Shown piece after piece: positions 27,632 through 51,232 of a stretch of DNA of 52,201 nucleotides (position 1 is the stretch's first letter; every line of letters begins with the position of its first letter). Under the pieces are notes generated by a model that made no database searches, was not told where the DNA came from, and was given only the letters and a program-made list of their open reading frames with translations. Where the stretch lies: NCBI GenBank assembly GCA_019308925.1, contig JAFDHG010000006.1:1-52201 (forward strand), in the 5' to 3' direction. The stretch is from Deltaproteobacteria bacterium (lineage in GTDB: Bacteria > Desulfobacterota > B13-G15 > RBG-16-54-18). Made by a program: the position numbers and the translations under genes.

Positions 27632-27673
27632 GCATCCCTTTTAAACTAAAAAATTATGTCTAAGGGGGGAGAC

Positions 27674-29836
27674 GTGACTGAATTTAAATATTCTAATGTT
27701 GAACGTGAGATGGAGGTGTACGGGTATGATTCTGTCGTGAAAAGCCACTGTCGCATGTGTCACGGAGGTTGTGGCGTTTTGGTCTATGTCAAAGATGGGA
27801 AAGTGGCAAAAATTGCTGGTGATCCTAACTGCCCAATAAATCATGGCACGCTCTGCAGCAAAGGAATTGCATCGGCGCAATTAGCCTACCATCCAGATCG
27901 ACTTACCTACCCTGTCAAACGAGTTGGTCCAAAGGGGAGCGGTAATTGGGAGCGTATTTCGTGGGGCGAGGCCTTGGATATGATTGCAGAGCGGATATTG
28001 ACCTATAAAGAAACGTTTGGGGCTGAGTCGATTGTCATGGGGTATGGAACAGGGAGGGAGAACGAAGCGGTAATCTATCGCTTTGCCAACATCTTAGGTA
28101 CTCCCAATGTGCTGACGGCAGGACATTTCTGCTACGGTCCGCGAATAGCCACCAGTATTATTACCTGTGGCTCGAATCCTCTTGTGGATTACGAGAATCA
28201 TCCGAGGTGCCTTATGGTATGGGGCAACAACGTGGTGATCAGTAACCCGGATGAATATAAGGGGGAACCATTTTCAGTCAGTCTTGATGCAGGGGCGAAA
28301 CTCATTGTTGTTGATCCCAGACTGACACGTATTGCAGCCCGTGCGGACATCTGGCTACAACTCAGGCCGGGAACGGATACGGCGCTAGCCCTCGGTATGG
28401 CCAATGTCATTGTTTCCGAAAAACTGTATGACAAAGAGTTTGTCGAGAATTATGTCCACGGCTGGGAGCCCTTTGTAGACCGGGTGAGTGAATACCCATT
28501 GGAGAGGGTGGAAGAGATCACCTGGGTTTCGAAAGAGAAGATCAGAGAGGCAGCCCGACTCTTTGCTACCACCAAACCGGCAGCTATCCAATGGGGGGTG
28601 GCCATTGAGCAGCAGATAAACTGCGCAGACAACAATCGGGCACTGATGGTGCTCATGGGGATCACCGGAAATATCGATGTTCCGGGTGGACAGGTACTCT
28701 TCGGGGCACCGAAAATACTTAATGTCGGTGAATTCGGTGCCCACCGCATGTTGTCCAAGGAGCAAGCGGTGAAACGATTAGGCGGCGATTGGTTCCGTCT
28801 TGCCGGCAACTTTGCCATTATCAACCCCAAGTGTGTATGGGATGCCATCCTTGAAGAAAAACCGTATCCAGTGAAGATGCTCTTTTTCATCAGCTCAAAT
28901 CCTGTGATGACTCGTGCCAATGCAAGAGAGGTGTACAAAGCTCTTGAAAAGGTCGAATTCATGGTTGTGTCTGACTTCTTCATGACGCCAACGGCCGAAT
29001 TGGCGGACATTGTGTTGCCTGCGGCTACCTGGTTAGAGATGGACTATATCGGGGACTTTTGGAAGCGGCATGGTTACCTGTTGCCTCGGCGAAAGGTTAT
29101 TCAGGTGGGTGAGTGCCGCTCCGATCATGAGATGCTCAATGACCTCGCCCATCGAGTAGGGCAGGGTGAATACTGGTGGGACACCTTTGAAGGAGGCCTG
29201 GATTACATTTTGGAACCGATGGGTATCACGTGGCAGGATTTCAAAAAGATGGATTACCTACGAGGAGAGGTGAAGTATCAGAAATACAAGGAGAAGGGAT
29301 TTTCGACGCCCACCCGTAAATTCGAGCTGTACTCAACGCTGCTGGAAAAATGGGGCTACGATCCTCTTCCCCAGTACCATGAAATGCCTGAAAGCCCGGT
29401 CAGTACCCCTGAAGTTTACAAAGAGTACCCGTACATCCTTATCACAGGCATGAGGATGCCTGGGTTTTTCCATACCGAAAATCGTCAGGTGCCGTGGCTG
29501 CGGGAGCTTCACAGGGAGCCTATGGTTGAGATTCACCCTGAGACGGCAGCAAAGGAGGGAATTAAGGAGGGAGATTGGGTTACCATCGAATCCCCGCGTG
29601 GTAGAGTCAGGCAGCGAGCCAAGCTCTTCGCCGGTATAGATCCGCGGGTTGTGGGCGCTCAGCATGCGTGGTGGTTTCCTGAGAGAAAAGACCCTGGCCA
29701 CGGTTGGGATGTATCGAACATCAACATTTTAACGGACAATGCCTATGAAATATGCGACCCTGCGATGGGGGCAACGAATGTGCGGGTGCTTTTATGCAAG
29801 ATCTATCCTGAGATGAAAGAAGGAGAAAAGTCATGA
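27674..29836 (+). CDS. Molybdopterin (Mo/W-bisPGD) oxidoreductase catalytic subunit
   Basis: A DMSO-reductase-family enzyme of about 720 residues. Near the N-terminus C26, C29, C33 and C61 (HCRMCHGGCG, then LCSKG) bind a [4Fe-4S] cluster. GHFCYGPR at about residue 153 lies where the metal-ligating residue is expected, implying a cysteine ligand. The C-terminal beta-barrel segment (EIHPETAAKEGIKEGDWVTIESPRG) is present. There is no Tat signal, so the enzyme should be cytoplasmic. The substrate is unknown; arrangements with only an Fe-S partner recall pyrogallol transhydroxylase or acetylene-hydratase relatives. GTG 27674 follows AAGGGGGGA; ATG 27656 is the alternative. It overlaps the next gene by four bases. 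Confidence 0.92.
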   Translation: MTEFKYSNVEREMEVYGYDSVVKSHCRMCHGGCGVLVYVKDGKVAKIAGDPNCPINHGTLCSKGIASAQLAYHPDRLTYPVKRVGPKGSGNWERISWGEALDMIAERILTYKETFGAESIVMGYGTGRENEAVIYRFANILGTPNVLTAGHFCYGPRIATSIITCGSNPLVDYENHPRCLMVWGNNVVISNPDEYKGEPFSVSLDAGAKLIVVDPRLTRIAARADIWLQLRPGTDTALALGMANVIVSEKLYDKEFVENYVHGWEPFVDRVSEYPLERVEEITWVSKEKIREAARLFATTKPAAIQWGVAIEQQINCADNNRALMVLMGITGNIDVPGGQVLFGAPKILNVGEFGAHRMLSKEQAVKRLGGDWFRLAGNFAIINPKCVWDAILEEKPYPVKMLFFISSNPVMTRANAREVYKALEKVEFMVVSDFFMTPTAELADIVLPAATWLEMDYIGDFWKRHGYLLPRRKVIQVGECRSDHEMLNDLAHRVGQGEYWWDTFEGGLDYILEPMGITWQDFKKMDYLRGEVKYQKYKEKGFSTPTRKFELYSTLLEKWGYDPLPQYHEMPESPVSTPEVYKEYPYILITGMRMPGFFHTENRQVPWLRELHREPMVEIHPETAAKEGIKEGDWVTIESPRGRVRQRAKLFAGIDPRVVGAQHAWWFPERKDPGHGWDVSNINILTDNAYEICDPAMGATNVRVLLCKIYPEMKEGEKS

Positions 29837-30312
29837 AACAATATGCTCTGGTTATCGATCATGAAGCCTGCTGGGGGTGTAAGGCCTGTGAGGTAGCGTG
29901 CAAACAGGAAAACCATGCTGCTGACGGGGTCAAGTTAATTTCTGTCTCAGAAGATGGGCCCAAGATGGTCGATGGCAAGCTGGAATTTGTTTTTCGGGTT
30001 AATGTCTGTAGACACTGTGACGAGCCTCCCTGCGCGGATGCCTGTCCTGAAGAGGCAATCATCAAAAGAGAAGATGGTATTGTGGTGATGGATTATGAAA
30101 AATGCACAGGGTGCCAGTTATGTATTGAGGTATGCCCTTACGATGCCATTGCCTTTGACGCTGAGGAGGGTATTGCACAGAAATGCAACCTCTGCTACCA
30201 GCGGGTGGATAAGGGGCTGTTGCCTGCGTGCGCCGACAACGTCTGCCTGGCCCATTGTATCCATTTTGGAGATCTGGAGGAGATTAAGCAAAGAATAGCG
30301 AAGAATGTATGA
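29833..30312 (+). CDS. Four-cluster [4Fe-4S] electron-transfer subunit (DmsB/NrfC-like)
   Basis: A 159-residue partner of the Mo enzyme, with an ATG overlapping its stop codon. Four cysteine groups are visible: CWGCKACEVACKQEN, CRHCDEPPCADACP, CTGCQLCIEVCP and a last set CNLC with CADNVCLAHC, enough for four [4Fe-4S] clusters. No signal peptide or membrane helix is present, and no NrfD-type quinone-interacting subunit follows, so electrons must go to or come from a soluble carrier, or be recycled internally. Confidence 0.95.
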   Translation: MKQYALVIDHEACWGCKACEVACKQENHAADGVKLISVSEDGPKMVDGKLEFVFRVNVCRHCDEPPCADACPEEAIIKREDGIVVMDYEKCTGCQLCIEVCPYDAIAFDAEEGIAQKCNLCYQRVDKGLLPACADNVCLAHCIHFGDLEEIKQRIAKNV

Positions 30313-30417: not shown

Positions 30418-30813
30418 CTAATGACCCTGGTTCGTAAGCATGAAGGTCGCCGTGGCCGTGGCCGCCACCTGACCATCTCCGTCCTTTACCGCCGCCTCCA
30501 CCTTAAAGAGCCTCTTTTTCTGTATATTGATTTTGGCCTCGGCGAGCATCTCCCCATCCCTCACCGGGGCCTTGTACTTTATCTCCAGCCTTACAGTGGA
30601 ATATCTTACTCCTGGTCCCACCAAGGAGAAGACGGCCACCGCCATGGCAGTATCCACCAGTGAGGCGATGACGCCCCCATGGATCTTCCCCGCAGGGTTG
30701 GTGAACTCATCTCTATAGGGCATCCTCACCCTGGCAAATCCCTCCCCGATCTCCAGGATCTCCATATGCATGTACTTCTCAAAGGGGGCGACCTTAAAAG
30801 ACCTTTTCTTCAT
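30418..30813 (-). CDS. PaaI-type hotdog-fold thioesterase
   Basis: A 131-residue acyl-CoA thioesterase-like protein. The hotdog signature NPAGKIHGGVIASLVDTAMAV carries the catalytic region, and the beta-sheet core RLEIKYKAPVRDGE follows. Related PaaI proteins hydrolyse phenylacetyl- or hydroxybenzoyl-CoA esters; the substrate here is unknown. It is convergent with the Mo-enzyme operon, 105 bases away. That gap has no obvious terminator. Confidence 0.88.
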   Translation of the reverse strand: MKKRSFKVAPFEKYMHMEILEIGEGFARVRMPYRDEFTNPAGKIHGGVIASLVDTAMAVAVFSLVGPGVRYSTVRLEIKYKAPVRDGEMLAEAKINIQKKRLFKVEAAVKDGDGQVAATATATFMLTNQGH

Positions 30814-30881: not shown

Positions 30882-32525
30882 TCAGCCCCCCCAATCCTCC
30901 ATCATCACCTGAAAGGCCCGCTGCCCGCCTCTGAGTACTCCAGCGTATCCACCACCAGGATACCCCCATGCGCTGGCCAAATAAAGCCCTTTGATGGGAG
31001 TCCGGTTGCTGATCCGATTCATATAGGCGTTGTCCATGGACTGCTCAAAGCCATAGATGGCCCCTTCAGCATTCCGGGTGTAATGCCAGTTTGTCAGGGG
31101 TGTAGCCGCTTCCTTGACCTCAATCATCGAGGAGAGTCCGGGTACTAACTCCTTTTCAGCCCTGCGGATGAGGATATTGGTCCATCGCTCCTTTTCCTTG
31201 TAATAGGCTTTCTTGCACCCTGCCCGGTAATCTGCCTCAAATTTTCGCCATGGTTTAAACCCGCACAGAAATAAGATCATCAGACTGGATGTCCCCGGCC
31301 TGGAGTAACCTTTGAAGATATTATCGTAGATGCTGACGCTGAAGGGACCCTTGTCGACCTCTCCCATTAGGTAGGATTGATAATCGGCCTCCGCTCCTCG
31401 ACCTGAAGCCACGTGGGTACTGAATCCTTTTATCTTTCCCCTTAATTCTCGGTTCAACCCAAGCCATACAATAAAGGTTGAGATACTGGGACGGTATCCT
31501 TCTAGCTCTCTTAGGTAATCGGGTGGAACAACCTTCCGAGGTAACATCTCTTTGAACGTGGTAAGTGCGCTGGCGTTGCTGACCACAGCCCGGGCAGGCA
31601 AGACCTTCCCTCCTGATATAACCACCCCCTGCGCGGCCCCATCCTTGACCAAGATCTTTTGCGCTAAGGTTTCGTACAGGATCTTTCCACCAGATTTTTC
31701 GATCACGTCGGCCAATGCATAGCTCAAGTCTTGGGAACGGTTTTTAACGTAGTAGGAACCGTTCTTGAGGTAGCCTCCGGTGGCATTTGCATAGTAGAAC
31801 CCGGAGAGCCTGGATGGTGGCAGACCGTAATAGCCCCACAGGGCGGCCAAAACATCTTGGAGCGCAGGCTCTTTGACATATTCGTTCATCAGCTCAGCTA
31901 GGGTCTTGTCCCGAACATTCCACATCTTGCGATACTGAATCGGGAAGATGACCCTGAAGATGCGCTTGTACAATCTCCCTTTTTGGTGATAACTGTTAGT
32001 TTCTTCGGCAATGCCGATCATTTCTTGGACAAAGCCTCGGATGCCCTCGGTTTCATCGGGAAAGTGCTTGGCCAAGAGGCGAATGTATGCCTCCGGGTCT
32101 TTCTGGGGAACCGAAATATCCAGGTCAGGGGTCTTCAGACGGTAGACCTCAGGGAGTTGGGCCAACTGCAGTTTATCCAGGACACCTACATCTCGCAGGA
32201 TGCGTGCCGGGGCATTATTGTTGATCGAGGTTCCGTGCAGGGATACCTCGAATGTAAACTTTCCTCCAGCCCTGTCAAAGGAGGTGGCATAGCCTCCTGG
32301 GACATTGTGTTGCTCAACTACGGTTATCGGAATCCCTTGCCTGGCCAGATAGGCCCCGCAACACAGCCCGCCCAATCCAGCCCCGATGATCACGGTCGGA
32401 TACTCACTCTTGGGGCCCATCTTAGCGGCATAGGCCGTGATCCTTTTCCAATCCAGGGCAAAGGATGCAGCGGTTATGGCTGAAATGGTGAGAAAGGAAC
32501 GTCTGGATATCTTTTTGTTGAGCAT
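30882..32525 (-). CDS. Tat-exported FAD-dependent oxidoreductase (phytoene desaturase/CrtI-like)
   Basis: A 547-residue flavoprotein. The N-terminus MLNKKISRRSFLTISAITAA is a twin-arginine signal, so the folded FAD protein should be exported to the periplasm. A Rossmann dinucleotide motif VIIGAGLGGLCCGAYLARQG at about residue 45 is followed by VVEQHNVPGGYATSF. The C-terminal block LYLASAWGYPGGGYAGVLRGG matches CrtI, carotenoid isomerase and retinol saturase relatives. The substrate is probably hydrophobic but unknown. ATG 32525 follows AAAGGAGGT. It is downstream of a 61-residue membrane protein and a MerR-like regulator on the same strand. Confidence 0.88.
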   Translation of the reverse strand: MLNKKISRRSFLTISAITAASFALDWKRITAYAAKMGPKSEYPTVIIGAGLGGLCCGAYLARQGIPITVVEQHNVPGGYATSFDRAGGKFTFEVSLHGTSINNNAPARILRDVGVLDKLQLAQLPEVYRLKTPDLDISVPQKDPEAYIRLLAKHFPDETEGIRGFVQEMIGIAEETNSYHQKGRLYKRIFRVIFPIQYRKMWNVRDKTLAELMNEYVKEPALQDVLAALWGYYGLPPSRLSGFYYANATGGYLKNGSYYVKNRSQDLSYALADVIEKSGGKILYETLAQKILVKDGAAQGVVISGGKVLPARAVVSNASALTTFKEMLPRKVVPPDYLRELEGYRPSISTFIVWLGLNRELRGKIKGFSTHVASGRGAEADYQSYLMGEVDKGPFSVSIYDNIFKGYSRPGTSSLMILFLCGFKPWRKFEADYRAGCKKAYYKEKERWTNILIRRAEKELVPGLSSMIEVKEAATPLTNWHYTRNAEGAIYGFEQSMDNAYMNRISNRTPIKGLYLASAWGYPGGGYAGVLRGGQRAFQVMMEDWGG

Positions 32526-32615: not shown

Positions 32616-32801
32616 TTATCCGCTGCTATATGGTGTTGCTCGCCCATAAAGGTCTAGGGTTAGCAAGGTGAAGAAAATACCCAAGCCTGTATGAATATAG
32701 ATTTCACTGGTTGTGCGTTCCCTAACTGCTTGGATTAACCATCTTCCATTAATAACACATATAACAGCACAAATACTGACACAAAGAATGTACCTATACA
32801 T
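32616..32801 (-). CDS. Small two-helix membrane protein, unknown family
   Basis: A 61-residue protein starting MYRYILCVSICAVICVING, with two predicted membrane helices (about 4-24 and 37-52) joined by a charged loop (AVRERTTSE). An excellent ribosome binding site, AAAAGGAGGT, lies seven bases before the ATG. The gene starts only 5 bases after the MerR-like gene ends, and the Tat-FAD gene starts 90 bases after its own end. I know no family for it; it could anchor or deliver electrons to the exported flavoprotein. Confidence 0.6.
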   Translation of the reverse strand: MYRYILCVSICAVICVINGRWLIQAVRERTTSEIYIHTGLGIFFTLLTLDLYGRATPYSSG

Positions 32802-32806
32802 CTTTT

Positions 32807-33508
32807 TTACCTCCTTTTATGGATCTTTTTCTCACCCCATCTCCCCTCCTGGATCTCCTCCTGTACCTTTCTCTGAAAAAGTCTGGTCAGGATATAGGTT
32901 CGAAGTTCTTTGGCCCCCTTGGCAAGTCGGGAGGTGATCTCGACCCCAGGGCCTATCTCCTTTCCAGCAATAATCTTGTTCCTCAGTGCCATCTCCTCTT
33001 CGATGATCTTCTCCCCACATTTGGGATAAAATACCAGATCCTTCAGATCTATACCTACAGAAAGGGCCATTGATAAACGTATCCCTGCCTTCAGGTCCTC
33101 CTCATCATATCTCTTCTCACCCTTTACGCTTAAAGGAAGGAGCAGCTCCAATCTCTCTGCCTCCTCCAGTTTTTCTTTCCCTAGGCCGGTCTTTTCTAAA
33201 AATTCTTCTTCTGTGTAGGCCTTCTCCTTGATTTCGTTTCGATGAAATATAAGAGCATCAAGCTCTAAGAGGGAATCTAGATCCGCACCGGCCTCCATCT
33301 TCTCTAAAAAATCCTTGATCCTGGATAAAGGGAAAAACCTTTTTTCCTGAAGCTCTTTGATTAAGCGGATCCTGTCGATGTAATCCTCGCTATAGTAGGC
33401 CATATTCTTACTGGTCTTAACCGGTGGGGGGAGCAACCCCTCCCGGACATAGTATAAGATGGTAGACTTTGACACCCCTGTCCTTTCAACCAGCTCAGCC
33501 ATCTTCAT
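32807..33508 (-). CDS. MerR-family regulator with a second MerR-like module
   Basis: A 233-residue regulator. The N-terminal MerR helix-turn-helix MKMAELVERTGVSKSTILYY is followed by the wing and NMAYYSEDYIDRIRLIKELQ. A second, more divergent repeat at about residues 100-150 (TEEEFLEKTGLGKEKLEEAE, later KRYDEEDLKAGIRL) has the same outline, so the protein may carry two DNA-binding modules. No cysteine-rich metal site typical of MerR, ZntR or CueR is present. ATG 33508 gives the usual start; an in-frame ATG at 33535 would add nine residues. It probably controls the two downstream genes. Confidence 0.85.
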   Translation of the reverse strand: MKMAELVERTGVSKSTILYYVREGLLPPPVKTSKNMAYYSEDYIDRIRLIKELQEKRFFPLSRIKDFLEKMEAGADLDSLLELDALIFHRNEIKEKAYTEEEFLEKTGLGKEKLEEAERLELLLPLSVKGEKRYDEEDLKAGIRLSMALSVGIDLKDLVFYPKCGEKIIEEEMALRNKIIAGKEIGPGVEITSRLAKGAKELRTYILTRLFQRKVQEEIQEGRWGEKKIHKRR

Positions 33509-33535
33509 CAGCCTTTTCTCCCTTAATTTAGTCAT

Positions 33536-33742
33536 TCCCTAAAGAATACTTAGTATAAAGTGCCACTTACCACTTATTACAAACATTGTCAAATCAGGAA
33601 ATAGCTTACCTAGACCAAAATTTTTCAAAAATGTAGGAGTAGTGAGTAAATAAAGGATCTAATCTTTTAAATTGACAAAATTTATTAGATTTTATGTGGT
33701 ATACATGGCCCAGTCGTTACGAATTGAAAATCTTTGTGTCGC
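33536..33742. other. AT-rich spacer between the MerR operon and the ABC exporter operon
   Basis: No gene is seen here. The minus-strand sequence upstream of the MerR-like gene has TTGACA (revealed as TGTCAA near 33588) but no convincing -10 at a suitable distance. It also has two close AAGTGG repeats. Farther on, ATCTAAT (33657-33663) and ATTAGAT (33684-33690) form an inverted repeat around a plus-strand TTGACA at 33672 that drives no visible gene. Confidence 0.5.
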
Positions 33743-34663
33743 TCATCCCCCTTTTTCCGCCAGGTAGATGAAGACATCCTCCAGACTGGGGGGAACTGCC
33801 TCTAATTCAAGGACGGAGACCCCCGCCTCCTCGAGAGTTTTGCGGATTTCCTCCTGAGTGGGGACGTCTGCCTCGGTGAGGATATGTAGACGGCGACCGA
33901 AGGGGGAGACCTCTGCTATGCCCGGGATCTGGCGCAGGATATCAGTGGCCTTGGTGATCTCCTCTACTTCCAGTTCATAGACCCTTCCGGGTATCTTCTG
34001 CTTTAACCGGGTGGGGGTCTCTGTGGCGACCAGCCTCCCGTTGAAGATCATCCCGAGCCGGTGGCACTGTTCCGCCTCCTCCATATAGTGGGTGGTCACC
34101 AGCACCGCAGTTCCTTGGGAGGAGAGGTTATAGATCAGCTCCCAAAAGGCTTGACGGGCCGCCGGGTCCACCCCAGAGGTCGGCTCATCCAGAAAGAGGA
34201 CCTCCGGGCGGTGCAGCACGGCACACCCCAGGGCCAGTCGCTGTCTCCACCCGGTGGGGAGGTTCTCTACCAAAAGGCCTTCTTTCCCGGATAAAGCGAT
34301 CATCTCCATCACCTCGTCGAGGCGCTCCCTAAAGTGCCCCTCAAGGAGACCATAGATCCCCGCATAGAGTGAGAGGTTCTCCCAGACGGTCAGATCCCTA
34401 TAGAGGGAGAAGCGCTGAGACATGTAGCCGATCCGGCTCCGTATCCTTTCGGGATCCTCGGCCACATCCACCCCTGCCACCAGGGCCCGGCCTGCAGTGG
34501 GGGGGAGGATGCCACAGAACATCCTGATGGTGGTCGTCTTGCCAGCGCCGTTGGGGCCTAAGAAACCAAATACCTCCCCCTGGGAGATGGAAAAGGAGAC
34601 CTCATCCACCGCGACGAAATCCTCGAACTTTTTGGTGAGCCCTTCTGCTACAATCGCCTCCAT
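33743..34663 (-). CDS. ABC-2 exporter ATPase (second ATPase of the operon)
   Basis: A 306-residue ATP-binding subunit with Walker A GPNGAGKTTTIRM (about residue 37), Walker B VLFLDEPTSGVDP and the switch histidine in TTHYMEEAE. The signature motif reads LPTGWRQRLALG instead of LSGGQ, as in one half of the fused YbhF-type ATPases. About 80 C-terminal residues form an ACT-like regulatory extension. It is the last gene of the five-gene exporter operon, eight bases after a permease gene. Confidence 0.92.
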   Translation of the reverse strand: MEAIVAEGLTKKFEDFVAVDEVSFSISQGEVFGFLGPNGAGKTTTIRMFCGILPPTAGRALVAGVDVAEDPERIRSRIGYMSQRFSLYRDLTVWENLSLYAGIYGLLEGHFRERLDEVMEMIALSGKEGLLVENLPTGWRQRLALGCAVLHRPEVLFLDEPTSGVDPAARQAFWELIYNLSSQGTAVLVTTHYMEEAEQCHRLGMIFNGRLVATETPTRLKQKIPGRVYELEVEEITKATDILRQIPGIAEVSPFGRRLHILTEADVPTQEEIRKTLEEAGVSVLELEAVPPSLEDVFIYLAEKGG

Positions 34664-34671
34664 CTCTCCCT

Positions 34672-35811
34672 CTAATCTAATTTCTTATGGAATCTTTTTA
34701 TGCTTATCCCCAAAAAAATCGGCCCGGCAATGGTCAGGAACAAGAGCTGGGGCCACAACACAGCTATCCCCACACCCTTGAGGAAGACCCCCCTCACGAT
34801 GACCAGGAAGTAGGTCATCGGGTTGATGTAGGCAAGCCAGCGCACAATAGCAGGTATGTTGTAGACGGGAAAGACAAACCCAGTAAGCAACACTGAGGGC
34901 ATGAAGTAGAAGAAGACCCCCATCAGGGCCTGTTGCTGGGTCCGGGAGATGGTGGAGATGAGGATGCCTATACCGAGGGCAGTGATCAGGTAGAGGACGG
35001 CAGAAATGGCCAACAGAAGGACATCACCCTGAAAGGGGATCCGAAACCAGAGGGTCCCCACCACAAAGATCAAGGCGAGGTTGATCAGTCCCAAAAGGAA
35101 GAAGGGGAGGGTCTTGCCGGCGATCAGCTCGGCCGGCCGAAGGGGGGTGACGATAAGCTGTTCCATGGTCCCCACCTCCCACTCCCTCACGATAGAAAAG
35201 GAGGTCAGGATCAGGGAGATAAGGGTGAGCAACAGGGCGATGACCCCGGGGACGAAGAAGTTGCGGCTTTTAAGGTCGGGGTTGAACCAGATCCTGATCT
35301 CCGGCCTTATCCGGGGGGAACGCCTCCCTGTGGTTATCTTTTTATTGAGGGGGGGATGCCTCTCCTTGAGCTTTTGAAGGTAGGCGGCGATTATCCTGTT
35401 CCCATAGGATACCGCTGTGGAGGCCACGATTGAGTCGGTCCCCTCCACGATCATCTGCAGATCAGCAGGTCGACCCCTTTGTAGGGCACGAGAGAAGTCC
35501 TCGGGGATGACCAGGATGACCTGGACCTCTCCTTTGTCTAAAAGGGGTTCTGCTGTGCGGGGCTCTCTTACCCTTTTCACGATCTGGAAGTAACCGGTGG
35601 CCTGAAAGGCGTCGACGAGGCCACGGCTGATGCTGGTGTCGCAGCGGTCACAGACTACTGTGCGGATGTCGTGTACATCGGTATTGACGGCGTAACCGAA
35701 GAGGATGAGTTGAATTAAAGGGGCGCCGAAGATGAGCATCCGCATCCTCTTATCCCGGAGGGCCTGCCTGATCTCCTTTTGAAAAAGGGCCTTTATACGC
35801 TGCAGGCTCAT
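34672..35811 (-). CDS. ABC-2 family permease (YbhR/YhhJ-like), second
   Basis: A 379-residue membrane subunit. One N-terminal helix (about 25-45) is followed by a large extracytoplasmic domain (about 50-180), then five C-terminal helices with the conserved FSIVREWEVGTMEQLIVTPL coupling segment typical of ABC-2 permeases of the YbhS/YbhR group. ATG 35811 follows AAGGAG and overlaps the previous permease stop by four bases. It is probably a heterodimer partner of that gene product. Confidence 0.92.
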   Translation of the reverse strand: MSLQRIKALFQKEIRQALRDKRMRMLIFGAPLIQLILFGYAVNTDVHDIRTVVCDRCDTSISRGLVDAFQATGYFQIVKRVREPRTAEPLLDKGEVQVILVIPEDFSRALQRGRPADLQMIVEGTDSIVASTAVSYGNRIIAAYLQKLKERHPPLNKKITTGRRSPRIRPEIRIWFNPDLKSRNFFVPGVIALLLTLISLILTSFSIVREWEVGTMEQLIVTPLRPAELIAGKTLPFFLLGLINLALIFVVGTLWFRIPFQGDVLLLAISAVLYLITALGIGILISTISRTQQQALMGVFFYFMPSVLLTGFVFPVYNIPAIVRWLAYINPMTYFLVIVRGVFLKGVGIAVLWPQLLFLTIAGPIFLGISIKRFHKKLD

Positions 35812-36950
35812 CTCCTTCGCTCCTTGATCTGACGGGGGACTTGTCGGGCGGCAAGCCACAGGACAAAGATAGCAAAGGCCAAAAGCAGAAGGAGGGGGGG
35901 GTAGAGTATGGAGAGACCGATACCTTTGAGGAAGATCCCCTTAAGGGCATGGATGAGGTAGCGGGCTGGGACGAGATAGCTTATACCCTGAAGGGGGATG
36001 GGCATATTGCGGATCGGAAAGACAAAGCCGGAAAGGAGTAGGGCAGGGAGATAGGTGGTGATGATGGCCATCTGCGTGGCCAAGGTTTGCCTCTTCGCCA
36101 CACCGGAGATAAATATCCCCAGACCCATGGCACCAATGGTGAATACTGAGGCAAAGAGATAGATGAGGGGGATGCTCCCCCTGATGGGGATCTGAAAGAT
36201 GAAGCGGCTGGCCAGAAGGAGGATGGAGATATTGATCATCCCCATGGCGAAGTAAGGGGTCATCTTTCCAATGACCACCTCTATTGGCCTGAGCGGCAGG
36301 GAGAGGAGAGTCTCCATAGTACCGGTCTCCCACTCCCTGGCCAGGGTGAGGGAGGTCAGCAGGGCCGCAATGATCATCAGGATGACAGCGATCAGGCCGG
36401 GCACGATGAAATTCCGGCTCTCCATCTCCGGGTTGAACCAGACCCTTATTGCCAGATCTACCGGAATTTCTACCCACCGAAGGGCCTTTTCTTGCTGAAG
36501 GGAGAGGTTATACCTTTCCATGATACCCTGGATATAGCCCATGGAGATGCCGGCTGTGGTAGAATCGCTGCCATCGAGAATAAACTGGACCTGGACCTCT
36601 TGACCCCTGTCCAGACGTTTGCCGAAATCGGGCGGGATGACCATGGCCACTAGGGCCTCTCCCTGGTCGAGATCCCTGATGAGCTCGGGGTATCCTCCCC
36701 TGAGGGCGATGATACGGTAGTAAGGGGAACCCCGAAAGGCGCAGATTAGGGTCCGACTGGCCGGGGTGCGATCCTGATCCCAGATTGCCAGGGGGATGTT
36801 CCTCACATCGTAGGAGAGGGAGGACCCAAATAGGATCAAGAGCAGAAAAGGCAGGAGGAAGGCGAGCCCCAGGCTCCGTTTGTCCCGGAGGATAAGGAGG
36901 GTCTCTATGTAAGCAAGGGCGGTGCTGCGGCGAAGGGCCTCAGGCAACAT
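35808..36950 (-). CDS. ABC-2 family permease (YbhS/YhhJ-like), first
   Basis: A 380-residue membrane subunit with the same design as its neighbour: helix at about 28-48, large extracytoplasmic domain, then five or six helices with TLAREWETGTMETLLSLPLR before the second. ATG 36950 (MLPEALRRSTALAYIETLL) overlaps the end of the ATPase gene by 11 bases. The two permeases are related but clearly diverged, consistent with an old duplication. Confidence 0.92.
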   Translation of the reverse strand: MLPEALRRSTALAYIETLLILRDKRSLGLAFLLPFLLLILFGSSLSYDVRNIPLAIWDQDRTPASRTLICAFRGSPYYRIIALRGGYPELIRDLDQGEALVAMVIPPDFGKRLDRGQEVQVQFILDGSDSTTAGISMGYIQGIMERYNLSLQQEKALRWVEIPVDLAIRVWFNPEMESRNFIVPGLIAVILMIIAALLTSLTLAREWETGTMETLLSLPLRPIEVVIGKMTPYFAMGMINISILLLASRFIFQIPIRGSIPLIYLFASVFTIGAMGLGIFISGVAKRQTLATQMAIITTYLPALLLSGFVFPIRNMPIPLQGISYLVPARYLIHALKGIFLKGIGLSILYPPLLLLLAFAIFVLWLAARQVPRQIKERRR

Positions 36951-37866
36951 GGCCCCTTTTCTCCAAGATAAAATAGAGGTCCTGAACAATGGGGATGGTC
37001 TTCTTTAATTGGACACCTTCCGCGTAGAGCTCCTTTAATATCTCCTCCAGTTCCCCCGAATCGAGGGCCCCTTTTTCGCAGACCAAGTGGATATGGTCGC
37101 CGCTGAGAAAGGAGACGGGTAGGGGAAGGCGCTCCCGCAGGCGGCGCAGCAGACCCCTGATCTCTGGGGCGTAGATGTCGCATGTGGCATAAGGAAAGAG
37201 TGCCCGCAGCCCCCGAGGATCCAGCACTTCCAGGATCTTCCCCTCCTGTAGGAAGGCGATGCGATGGCACCTCTCGGCCTCCTCCAGATAAGGGGTGGAA
37301 ATGAAGATCGTGACCCCTTCGGAGGAGAAGGAATGGAGTGTGTTCCAGAACTCCCGGCGGGAGATGGGATCTACCCCTATGGTGGGTTCGTCGAGCAGGA
37401 GGATCTTGGGTTGATGGATCAGGATGCAGGAAAGGCCCAACTTTTGCCTCATCCCCCCGGAGAGCTGGGCTGCCCGGCGATCCTTAAAGGGTCCAAGGCC
37501 GCTGAAACGATAGAGCCCTTCTGTCCTGTCCTGAAACTCCCTTCTTCCTAACCCGTGGATGCGGGCCACAAAGCGGAGGTTCTCCTCAACGGTGAGGGCC
37601 CCATAGAGGCCGAAGGTCTGTGGCATATACCCCACGGCACTGCGGATCTCCTCGTATGCACTGATGGCGTCGATGCCGTGTACATAGATCTCCCCCTCTG
37701 TGGGCTCCAGGATGCCGGCGATCATCCGGATCAGGGTGCTTTTGCCAGCCCCATCCGGGCCGATCAGTCCGAAGACCTCCCCCTCCTCTATGGAGAGGTC
37801 GACCCCTCCAATGACTTCATGATCCCCAAAACGCTTCTTCAGGCCCCTTACCTGGATGATGGCCAT
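36940..37866 (-). CDS. ABC-2 exporter ATPase (first ATPase of the operon)
   Basis: A 308-residue nucleotide-binding subunit with Walker A GPDGAGKSTLIRM, a canonical signature LSGGMRQKLGLS, Walker B ILLLDEPTIGVDP and the STPYLEEAERCHRI segment, in which Tyr replaces the usual switch His. The altered switch residue suggests an ATP site of reduced activity, paired with the second ATPase. ATG 37866 follows GGAGGA three bases after the membrane fusion protein gene ends. Confidence 0.92.
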   Translation of the reverse strand: MAIIQVRGLKKRFGDHEVIGGVDLSIEEGEVFGLIGPDGAGKSTLIRMIAGILEPTEGEIYVHGIDAISAYEEIRSAVGYMPQTFGLYGALTVEENLRFVARIHGLGRREFQDRTEGLYRFSGLGPFKDRRAAQLSGGMRQKLGLSCILIHQPKILLLDEPTIGVDPISRREFWNTLHSFSSEGVTIFISTPYLEEAERCHRIAFLQEGKILEVLDPRGLRALFPYATCDIYAPEIRGLLRRLRERLPLPVSFLSGDHIHLVCEKGALDSGELEEILKELYAEGVQLKKTIPIVQDLYFILEKRGHVA

Positions 37867-37869
37867 CAC

Positions 37870-38745
37870 CTATTCCTCCAGGCGCAAGTAGACATCTATT
37901 GGCATCCCTGGCTTCAGGATCCCCTCTTTATTGGCGAGATAGACCCTAGCCTCGTAGACAAGCTTGACGCGCTCTTCACGGGTCTGCACGTTTTTTGGGG
38001 TGAACTCCGCCTCCTTGGCAATGTAGCGCAGGATTCCGGGGAATCTTCGCTCAGGATAGGCATCGGTCATTACCGAGGCCCCCTGTCCAAGGCGTACCTT
38101 TCCGATATCCCTCTCCCCGATATAGACCCGGACCCAGGGGCGCTGCAGATCTCCTATGGTCATCAGCACCATCCCAGGAAAGACCACCTCCCCTACCTCC
38201 ACATTCCTCTCCAAGACCACTCCGGTGATGGGGCAAGAGAGGTGGGTCTTCTTTAGTTGCAACTGGAGGGTTTCGATCCTGGCCTGGACCTCGTCCTGCC
38301 TGTGCAGGGAGGCGGTATAGGTCTCCTTGGTGACTTCATAAGCGGTCTTGACGGCATCAAAACTGCTGGCGGAGATCGCCTTGGCCCGATAGAGTTGGAG
38401 GTTTCTCTTGAACTCCCGCCGGGCGTTTTCCATCTTGACCCTGTTCAACGAGATCTCGGCCTCGATGGCCCTCTTGGCAGCCGTGGCCTCCCGGAGCTTT
38501 GCCTTCAGGTCGCTCCCCTGCAGGTCGAGCAAGGGGTCGCCCTCCGTTACCTGATCACCCTCCCGGTGATAGAGGGCCACTACCCTTGCCGAGAGCTCCG
38601 GTGAGATCTCCACCTCAGTGACCTCCATCGTCCCTGAGAGGAGGAGTTGTCCTGGACCACCACGGTCTCGGTAATAGAAGAAATAATAAAAGAGGGCACC
38701 CAGCATGAGAAGGATGACAATTAGGAGAACGATCTTTTTTCTCAT
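37870..38745 (-). CDS. HlyD/YbhG-type membrane fusion protein
   Basis: Periplasmic adaptor of the exporter, 291 residues. One N-terminal membrane anchor (about 5-24) is followed by the biotinyl-lipoyl half-motif (SPELSARVVALYHREGDQV), a helical hairpin of about 100 residues, the second lipoyl half (THLSCPITGVVLERNVEVGE) and a beta-barrel domain. It is the first gene of the operon, with ATG after GGAGGAAT. It should link the inner-membrane pump to an outer-membrane channel, not encoded here. Confidence 0.92.
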   Translation of the reverse strand: MRKKIVLLIVILLMLGALFYYFFYYRDRGGPGQLLLSGTMEVTEVEISPELSARVVALYHREGDQVTEGDPLLDLQGSDLKAKLREATAAKRAIEAEISLNRVKMENARREFKRNLQLYRAKAISASSFDAVKTAYEVTKETYTASLHRQDEVQARIETLQLQLKKTHLSCPITGVVLERNVEVGEVVFPGMVLMTIGDLQRPWVRVYIGERDIGKVRLGQGASVMTDAYPERRFPGILRYIAKEAEFTPKNVQTREERVKLVYEARVYLANKEGILKPGMPIDVYLRLEE

Positions 38746-48194: not shown

Positions 48195-48965
48195 ATGAGG
48201 CGTTGCTTACTATGTTTACTAAGTTTGATCTTCCTGCTATCAGGCATGGAGATTGGTTTCTCCCAACCCACAGGTTTATGGGTTGCCCAAAAGACAGATG
48301 AGAGAGAAAAGGGTGATGATGCAAGTTTTAAAATGGACATGACCCTAATAGGCAAGAAGGGCAAAGAAAGGAAAAGAAGACTTTTCATAATCCGAAAAGA
48401 TTTTGATGGAAAAGACAAGCTACTTCTCAAGTTTACTTACCCTAAGGATATAAAAGGGACATCTTTTTTGGTATGGGAGCACAAAGGGAGAGACAACGAA
48501 AGGTTTCTCTATCTCCCTGCCCTTGGCAGGATAAGAAGGATCGCTACTCGAGAGAAAGATGAAAACTTCGTTGGCACAGACTTCTCCTATGAGGATATAT
48601 CGGGCAGAAAATTGGAAGACTATACCTACCAATTAATAGAAGAAGGGATAATCTATGAAGGGAAAAATTGTTATCTTTTAGCCTCATATCCAAAGGAGAA
48701 GGGTTCCAAATATCCGAAAATCCTTTCCTGGGTCAGGAAGGACAATTTCGTTGTAACTAAAGCAGAATATTATAGCAAGAAAGGGGAAATTGAAAAGATC
48801 TACAAAGTTTTGAAACTGGAAAAAATCGATGGAATCTGGACTTCACTGGAACTTTTAATGGAAAATCTCAAAACCAATCATAAGACATCCATCAAGGTGA
48901 AAGAAGTTCAGTATAACAAAGGTATTTCTGATGACCGTTTTGAAAGAAGAAAGCTAAAGAGATAA
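48195..48965 (+). CDS. LolA-like periplasmic outer-membrane lipoprotein-sorting protein
   Basis: A 256-residue exported protein with a signal peptide (about 1-23, ending IGFSQ) and a LolA_like domain (PF17131 type), with typical segments KDIKGTSFLVWEHKGRDNER, FLYLPALGRIRRIA and FVGTDFSYEDI. Such proteins accompany MMPL transporters and are thought to carry a lipid or lipoprotein across the periplasm. The ATG follows AGAAGGAGG. The stop codon overlaps the next gene's ATG by one base. Confidence 0.88.
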   Translation: MRRCLLCLLSLIFLLSGMEIGFSQPTGLWVAQKTDEREKGDDASFKMDMTLIGKKGKERKRRLFIIRKDFDGKDKLLLKFTYPKDIKGTSFLVWEHKGRDNERFLYLPALGRIRRIATREKDENFVGTDFSYEDISGRKLEDYTYQLIEEGIIYEGKNCYLLASYPKEKGSKYPKILSWVRKDNFVVTKAEYYSKKGEIEKIYKVLKLEKIDGIWTSLELLMENLKTNHKTSIKVKEVQYNKGISDDRFERRKLKR

Positions 48966-51232
48966 TGGAAAGATTGGCCAAAATTTTATATAGGTTCAGA
49001 TTCTTCTGGCTGGGCCCAATCATTGCGGTAACGGTTGTTTTTGGTTCTTTAATTAAAATTGAGATGGATAACTCACTCAAGGCATGGTTTTCAGTGAGTG
49101 ACCCAGATTACATCGTTTATGAGGATTATCGAGATACATTTGAAGGTGGAAGGGTCTTAATGGTTGTTCTACGCTCTGAAGATATATTTTCCTTAGAGGT
49201 CTTAAACTATATCAAGCAAAAGACAGAAGAGTTTGAAGACTTAGCTCAAGTAAAGCGAGTCCATAGTCTGGCAAACGCCAACAAAGTAATCGGGACTTCA
49301 GAAGGTATTGAGATTAATCCCCTTCTTTTAGAATTAGAAACAAATAACTTACAGAAAATAAGAAAATACGCCCTCGAAGACGAGCTGTTCAGAGATTATT
49401 TGGTTTCATCCAATGAAAAATTTACCGCTATCGTGATTACCTTTGAGGACATGCCTGCCGAGGAAACAGATAAAGCGGTCTGTCAGGTTGAAGAGATAGC
49501 TCATAAAGGAAGACCAAGGAATTTAGAAGTGTCTCTTTCCGGCGATATGAGAGCGATGTCTGAATTTAACAGATTCACTAAACAAAACCAGAGTATATTC
49601 CCACTTCTGACAATTGCTGTAATCTGTATATTTATATTCGTTTTATTCCGCTCTTTGTATAAAAATCTTATCATCCTTTTAGTTATAGGGATGAGCCTCT
49701 GCTGGGCATTGGGGTTTTATTCAGCTTTGGGATATACCTTTAATGTAGTAACAGGGATGCTCATTCCTTTGGTTATGATCTTATCCATAGCCAACTGCAT
49801 TCATATAATGAAATATTTCGATGAGGTAAGAGAAGATTCTAAAAAGAGAGAGGCCTTTATACGTACTATAAAATATATTACTATTCCCTGTTTCATTACC
49901 AGCATAACCACTGCCTTTGGACTATTATCTTTGTCTATCAGCCATATTGATGCAGTGAAGCACTTTGGTATCGGTTCAGCAGCGGGGATTATGTTTGCTT
50001 TCTTTATCTCTATCACCCTAGTGCCTCTATTGTTAAGTCTATTACCCTCTAACCAAGAAATAAAGAGAGGTCGAGGCTTAAAACACCTTCTAAATGGGAT
50101 CTCTAAATTTAACGAAAGAAGATTTAAATATACTTTAGTAGTGGCAGTTCTCGGATTCATCTTCTTTGGTTGGGGTATTACAAAAGTAAAGATAGAAACA
50201 AACCAAATCGAATGGTTCCCTAAAAAAGGAGATTTTTATAAATCCTCTATGCTGGTGGATAAGAATCTTTCTGGAATTGGAGTTATGGAAATAGTCATCA
50301 AAGGTGAGGAAGATGTGTTAAAGGAACCGGAAATATTAAAAAGAGTGGATAAGCTGTCTTCGGAGATTGAAAAACTTCCTCGTGTCAAAAAGCTGATTTC
50401 TCTGGTAGATTATGTGAAAAGGATAAACAAGGCATTAGAGGCGGATAACCCTGAATATTACAGAATACCCGACTCTAAATCTCTAATAGCGCAGGAGCTA
50501 CTTTTATTTACCCTCTCTGACGATGGTAGAAAAGAATTGGAAAACATAGTCACACCCGATTATGCACAAGGGAGAATATCTATAAAGACTGAATCTATGC
50601 CTTCCCGAAAAAGTCTAATCCTGGGCAATTTGCTGGAGAAAATGGCGAAAGAGACCTTTTCAGGAACAGGGATAAGTATTACTCTGACTGGAACTATTTA
50701 TCTATATAATTTACTGCAAGAATACCTCCTGGAAAGCCAAATCAGAGGTTTCTCTTTAGCATTTTTATCGGTAATAGGAGTTCTGTTTATTGCTTTCTGG
50801 TCAGCAAGATATGGTGGATTAAGCATAATACCTAACTTACTACCAATAATATTCATTATGGGGATTATGGGGTGGTCTGGTATTGCCCTTAACACTGGAA
50901 CCGTAATGATAGCTTCTGTAGCCCTGGGTATCGCCGCAGATGATACCATTCACTTTATCTCCAGATTCAGGAAAGAACTTAAATCTAACAAATTTCCCGT
51001 CCAAGATGCCTTAAAGGAAACTACTGTTTCTGTCGGGGATGCCATTATTTTTACTTCGGTGATAAATATGGCGGGATTTTTAATCCTTTTAATATCCGGC
51101 TTTCAGCCTACACGAGAATTTGGAATGTTAATTGCCCTGACTTTATTCTTTGCCCTCATTGGAGATATATTAGTCCTTCCCTCAAGCATAGTGGCAACGA
51201 GAAGGTTTTTAATAAGAAAATTTAAACCATGA
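48965..51232 (+). CDS. MMPL/RND-family transporter
   Basis: A 755-residue inner-membrane exporter. It has the two-fold RND plan: an N-terminal helix, a periplasmic domain (about 40-210), a six-helix bundle (about 215-385), a second start helix and periplasmic domain (about 410-585), and a second helix bundle (about 590-750). The GIAADDTIHFISRFR and MILSIANCIHIMKYF segments carry the charged residues of helices 4 and 10. Relatives export hydrophobic molecules such as lipids. The gene overlaps both neighbours (TAATG and ATGA). Confidence 0.93.
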   Translation: MERLAKILYRFRFFWLGPIIAVTVVFGSLIKIEMDNSLKAWFSVSDPDYIVYEDYRDTFEGGRVLMVVLRSEDIFSLEVLNYIKQKTEEFEDLAQVKRVHSLANANKVIGTSEGIEINPLLLELETNNLQKIRKYALEDELFRDYLVSSNEKFTAIVITFEDMPAEETDKAVCQVEEIAHKGRPRNLEVSLSGDMRAMSEFNRFTKQNQSIFPLLTIAVICIFIFVLFRSLYKNLIILLVIGMSLCWALGFYSALGYTFNVVTGMLIPLVMILSIANCIHIMKYFDEVREDSKKREAFIRTIKYITIPCFITSITTAFGLLSLSISHIDAVKHFGIGSAAGIMFAFFISITLVPLLLSLLPSNQEIKRGRGLKHLLNGISKFNERRFKYTLVVAVLGFIFFGWGITKVKIETNQIEWFPKKGDFYKSSMLVDKNLSGIGVMEIVIKGEEDVLKEPEILKRVDKLSSEIEKLPRVKKLISLVDYVKRINKALEADNPEYYRIPDSKSLIAQELLLFTLSDDGRKELENIVTPDYAQGRISIKTESMPSRKSLILGNLLEKMAKETFSGTGISITLTGTIYLYNLLQEYLLESQIRGFSLAFLSVIGVLFIAFWSARYGGLSIIPNLLPIIFIMGIMGWSGIALNTGTVMIASVALGIAADDTIHFISRFRKELKSNKFPVQDALKETTVSVGDAIIFTSVINMAGFLILLISGFQPTREFGMLIALTLFFALIGDILVLPSSIVATRRFLIRKFKP

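Follow-up and report, generated by a model that had tools for sequence, protein, structure and literature searches.

The CrtI-type enzymes known so far are cytoplasmic, membrane-peripheral carotenoid enzymes. CRTI can take quinones as acceptors in place of oxygen (PMC3382138), and Tat-signal flavoenzymes of the wider superfamily are already known in NicA2 and Pnao (PMC12224317), so that a periplasmic location is by itself not new. In the window, by which is meant the whole stretch of 52,201 nucleotides analysed, a MerR-type regulator probably controls a CrtI-family flavoenzyme predicted to be exported by the Tat pathway, and what appears to be the 5' stub left by deletion of an integral-membrane methyltransferase gene lies between them (Table 1).

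Table 1. Coordinates of the features discussed and the evidence for each
Feature	Position	Strand	Evidence
MerR-type regulator with second, degenerate HTH-like module	32807..33508	-	Pfam MerR_1 E 8.5e-22; internal repeat
61-codon two-helix frame	32616-32801	-	open reading frame, two hydrophobic stretches
Ribosome-binding site AGGAGG for the 61-codon frame; overlaps the MerR frame's end	32810..32815	-	sequence
Codons 1-50, resembling the N-terminal part of a PEMT/ICMT-type membrane methyltransferase	32652..32801	-	alignment to L031
Codons 51-61 with the stop, an unrelated tail beyond the homology break	32616..32651	-	alignment ends at residue 50
CrtI-like FAD oxidoreductase, predicted to be Tat-exported	30882..32525	-	Pfam Amino_oxidase 1.1e-16; NCBIfam crtI_fam 123 bits; RRxF; clade
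Tat signal peptide (SRRSFLTIS ... AYA)	32427..32525	-	sequence; conserved motif
Intergenic region upstream of the MerR gene, likely promoter and putative operator	33536..33742	-	only non-coding DNA separating the MerR frame from the ABC transporter operon (ends 33743)
Hotdog-fold thioesterase gene, possibly co-transcribed	30418..30813	-	4HBT 2.2e-15

An earlier note on this DNA had described a MerR-like gene, a small frame and a flavoprotein gene as consecutive on one strand, and their frames, strands and coordinates hold in the sequence. The gap from the MerR gene to the 61-codon frame is 5 bp and that from the 61-codon frame to the flavoprotein gene is 90 bp, and G+C content shifts along the segment. 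A gap of 68 bp separates the flavoprotein gene from the hotdog thioesterase gene that follows it on this strand; the latter was not seen adjoining other Tat-CrtI genes. One apparent operon at 33743-38745, encoding HlyD, two ABC ATPases and two ABC-2 permeases, immediately precedes the MerR gene on this strand, with 200 bp of AT-rich DNA separating the two. On the other side, at 27656-30312, genes for a molybdopterin oxidoreductase and a 4Fe-4S ferredoxin-type subunit lie behind an IclR regulator gene and are convergent with the MerR-CrtI genes.

The flavoprotein belongs by sequence to the FAD-binding amine-oxidase/CrtI family, with a match to Pfam Amino_oxidase over residues 51-537 (61.6 bits) and profile matches to 4dgk and 4rep. 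Features of its gene include AGGAGG at 32538-32533 and MLNKKISRRSFLTIS, and an AYA-A cleavage-like site stands ahead of the FAD-binding motif. The RRxF signal is invariant, with R8, R9 and F11 present in 22/22 aligned sequences (the window's included), and the 22 sequences form one clade with support of 99/98. The three paralogues in the same genome fall outside this clade and show no signal peptide. Together with the presence of TatC in the genome, these results bear out the earlier description of a Tat-exported, CrtI-like FAD oxidoreductase. As judged from the signal, export is conserved across an unnamed CrtI-like family in Desulfobacterota, and a description of such an exported clade was not found in the literature searched. 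The structure model of the flavoprotein was poor (pLDDT 42).

Compared with the CrtI/carotenoid isomerase/retinol saturase superfamily (TIGR02734, TIGR02730; PDB 4dgk), the flavoprotein shows near-full-length similarity and shares the FAD-binding motif, but it is Tat-exported and falls below all curated cut-offs, scoring 123 bits against 238 for crtI_fam (TIGR02734). Members of the CrtI family act on the organism's own phytoene or carotene; here, no phytoene/squalene synthase was found in the 99%-complete genome, so there would be no home-made substrate and ordinary carotenoid synthesis is unlikely. By analogy with the superfamily, the flavoenzyme would act on a hydrophobic, probably lipid-like substrate and pass electrons to a quinone (PMC3382138). 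With the NicA2/Pnao-type amine dehydrogenases it shares a Tat signal, membership of the wider amine oxidoreductase superfamily and, putatively, the feeding of electrons to a periplasmic acceptor (PMC12224317). It resembles CrtI more closely than it does amine oxidases, however, and no adjacent cytochrome c gene, a feature of the NicA2 type, was found; the adjoining frames are the MerR gene, the stub, the 4HBT thioesterase and the ABC genes.

The Tat-CrtI family is patchy, being present in 19/395 genomes of the phylum and mostly among unrelated neighbours. Orthologues of the flavoprotein, at ∼60-80% identity, are scattered over Desulfobacterota. At the threshold used, none was found in seven genomes of the same family or in two of the same order, and Desulfobacterales MAGs carry the most similar copies, a pattern that fits transfer or repeated loss. 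Plasmid copies were searched for and none was found. The loci examined revealed no general conserved partner of Tat-CrtI genes, and subsets of them neighbour LytTR two-component genes, LolA-like and MacB-type ABC genes, MMPL and DUF1329 genes, or others. The LolA-like/MacB and MMPL/DUF1329 neighbours hint at a link to envelope lipids. Within the window itself, positions 48195-51232 encode a LolA-like protein and, after it, an MMPL-type RND transporter, and LolA-like/MMPL or MacB genes similar to these adjoin Tat-CrtI genes at two loci elsewhere, a hint of a common envelope-lipid theme.

In the regulator, MerR_1 matches residues 1-69, and this N-terminal winged HTH scores 77.5 bits against a Pfam cut-off of 21.6. 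A start at 33535 is possible for this frame, but alignments with relatives begin at the ATG at 33508. The two apparent HTH modules reported previously find support in an internal repeat, whose local score of 49 was equalled in 3/2000 shuffles and which places a second, degenerate module at residues ∼98-162. The structure model of the regulator was poor (pLDDT 56). FtsR-like two-module regulators (NF050798) likewise combine a MerR domain with a second HTH-like module and match the window's protein over residues 11-158, but it reaches only 57 bits against their cut-off of 150 and the genes neighbouring the present type mostly encode flavoenzymes or serve transport.

Homologues of this two-module MerR type occur in 58/395 genomes of the phylum. 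A flavoenzyme adjoins the type in 20/40 loci as compared to 1/28 control loci with the same queries, the flavoenzyme queries having been drawn from the MerR loci themselves and the genomes compared being related, not independent. By Pfam, flavoproteins among the control-locus neighbours numbered 0/20. The enzymes at the 20 loci are diverse: six are CrtI-like (three exported with a lipobox-type signal, one cytoplasmic, one distant and one Tat-CrtI), and the others are FMN-reductase-like (10), nitronate monooxygenases (2) or convergent old-yellow-enzyme-like proteins (2). The Tat-CrtI case is in genome G123, where the MerR gene lies ∼80 bp behind the Tat-CrtI gene on the same strand, in an order reversed relative to the window. 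The phylogenetic tree still requires several separate flavoenzyme pairings, and two for Tat-CrtI. At most Tat-CrtI genes, including the closest orthologue (79%), a MerR neighbour is absent. The regulator-flavoenzyme link thus has partial support.

Two arrangements were seen beside the same MerR type. At three loci belonging to one family (f14), it adjoins CrtI-like flavoproteins with lipoprotein-type signals, which represent a second, separate exported CrtI lineage. At nine loci, the MerR gene immediately precedes one whose product is a membrane protein with a fused FMN-reductase/flavodoxin-like domain, with a gap of ∼27-44 bp where measured, forming a recurrent regulator-enzyme pair.

Residues 1-50 of the 61-codon frame align with residues 1-50 of a 190-residue protein (L031) of genome G041 at 42% identity (E 7.3e-12), the one convincing match in 59 related genomes searched; among the 395 phylum genomes, a relative outside this genome was seen only in G041. 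Matches to Pfam PEMT (E 1.5e-9) and PDB 4a2n identify the full-length G041 protein as a membrane methyltransferase of PEMT/ICMT type, and a second one (L065), in genome G454, is 83% identical to it. Alignments of the frame with both are gap-free, run from start codon to start codon and end at residue 50. The stub alignment scores 133; none of 2000 block shuffles exceeded 65, and the highest-scoring of 510 other frames reached 50. Three weaker matches were set aside, one falling within a transporter-like membrane protein and two being frames that look spurious. Methyltransferases with a stub-like N-terminus were found in just two Desulfobacterota genomes of one family, G041 and G454, where the gene is surrounded by unrelated genes.

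Like PEMT/ICMT-type integral membrane methyltransferases (PF04191; PDB 4a2n), the 61-residue frame has their two N-terminal helices, but it ends before the C-terminal, SAM-binding catalytic segment and lacks it entirely. This catalytic part was not found in the window or elsewhere in the genome; a search for the rest of the enzyme returned only a different PEMT protein, on contig C11. The frame has a GC3 of 0.34, as compared to 0.56-0.73 in its neighbours, and its codon score falls under the 5th percentile for segments of real genes. Most likely, the frame is what remains of the 5' end of a methyltransferase gene that was otherwise deleted, although the peptide may retain some function.

The earlier note had taken this frame for a dedicated membrane peptide, and its near-perfect ribosome-binding site and two membrane helices are indeed there, as an AGGAGG and two hydrophobic stretches. 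These traits, with a frame that is intact, without internal stop and on the same strand, would suit a working small membrane protein that descends from the N-terminus of a methyltransferase and anchors or assists the exported flavoenzyme. Such a role is quite improbable given the abrupt homology break at residue 50, the atypical codon usage and the absence of the frame beside any other Tat-CrtI gene in the genomes searched. The note itself had named the lack of a conserved neighbourhood in related genomes as grounds for giving the idea up; the neighbourhood is not conserved, and a conserved small protein was rejected. Of its proposal of one redox unit, the 61-residue partner therefore falls away, and what stands is a conserved, apparently Tat-exported CrtI-like family and a recurrent MerR-flavoenzyme link.

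That link bears on whether chance alone brought the three genes together, through the landing of an acquired flavoenzyme gene behind an unrelated MerR-methyltransferase remnant. Chance is unlikely, since flavoenzymes are much commoner beside the MerR type than at control loci and the type is paired with Tat-CrtI in G123, even though the varying G+C content, the lack of the flavoenzyme in the same-family genomes searched and upstream DNA in the Desulfobacterales MAG orthologues that is unrelated to the window's would all agree with it. A conventional role for the flavoenzyme in desaturating or isomerising carotenoids is scarcely credible: its best curated matches are the CrtI and carotenoid isomerase families and its nearest solved structures are phytoene dehydrogenases, but the scores lie far under the family cut-offs, the Tat signal is invariant and the synthase is missing. 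It is plausible that the regulator and the exported CrtI-like enzyme make up a unit of moderate interest.

Under regulator control of the flavoenzyme, the MerR-type protein would bind ahead of its own gene, and a ligand or redox signal that it senses would lead it to raise transcription through the stub into the flavoenzyme gene. The flavoenzyme would fold with FAD in the cytoplasm before export by the Tat system and then be released or remain peripheral on the periplasmic side, where it may oxidise or reduce a C-C bond of a lipid-like substrate. Electrons would be exchanged with membrane menaquinone, an acceptor proposed because CRTI can work with quinones instead of oxygen (PMC3382138). Translation of the 61-residue peptide may continue; without the methyltransferase catalytic half, the peptide would not be a needed partner.

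Recognition of the stub keeps a false small-protein partner from being pursued, and the MerR-flavoenzyme pairing offers a handle for finding inducers. More broadly, the flavoenzymes could constitute an undescribed Tat-exported CrtI-type family of Desulfobacterota, engaged in quinone-linked redox chemistry on periplasmic lipids or terpenoids and controlled in some lineages by a flavoenzyme-dedicated MerR subfamily, a proposal that is tentative and possible rather than probable. The invariance of the Tat signal across a CrtI clade, represented here in a genome that lacks phytoene/squalene synthase, suggests a periplasmic redox step that has yet to be assigned.
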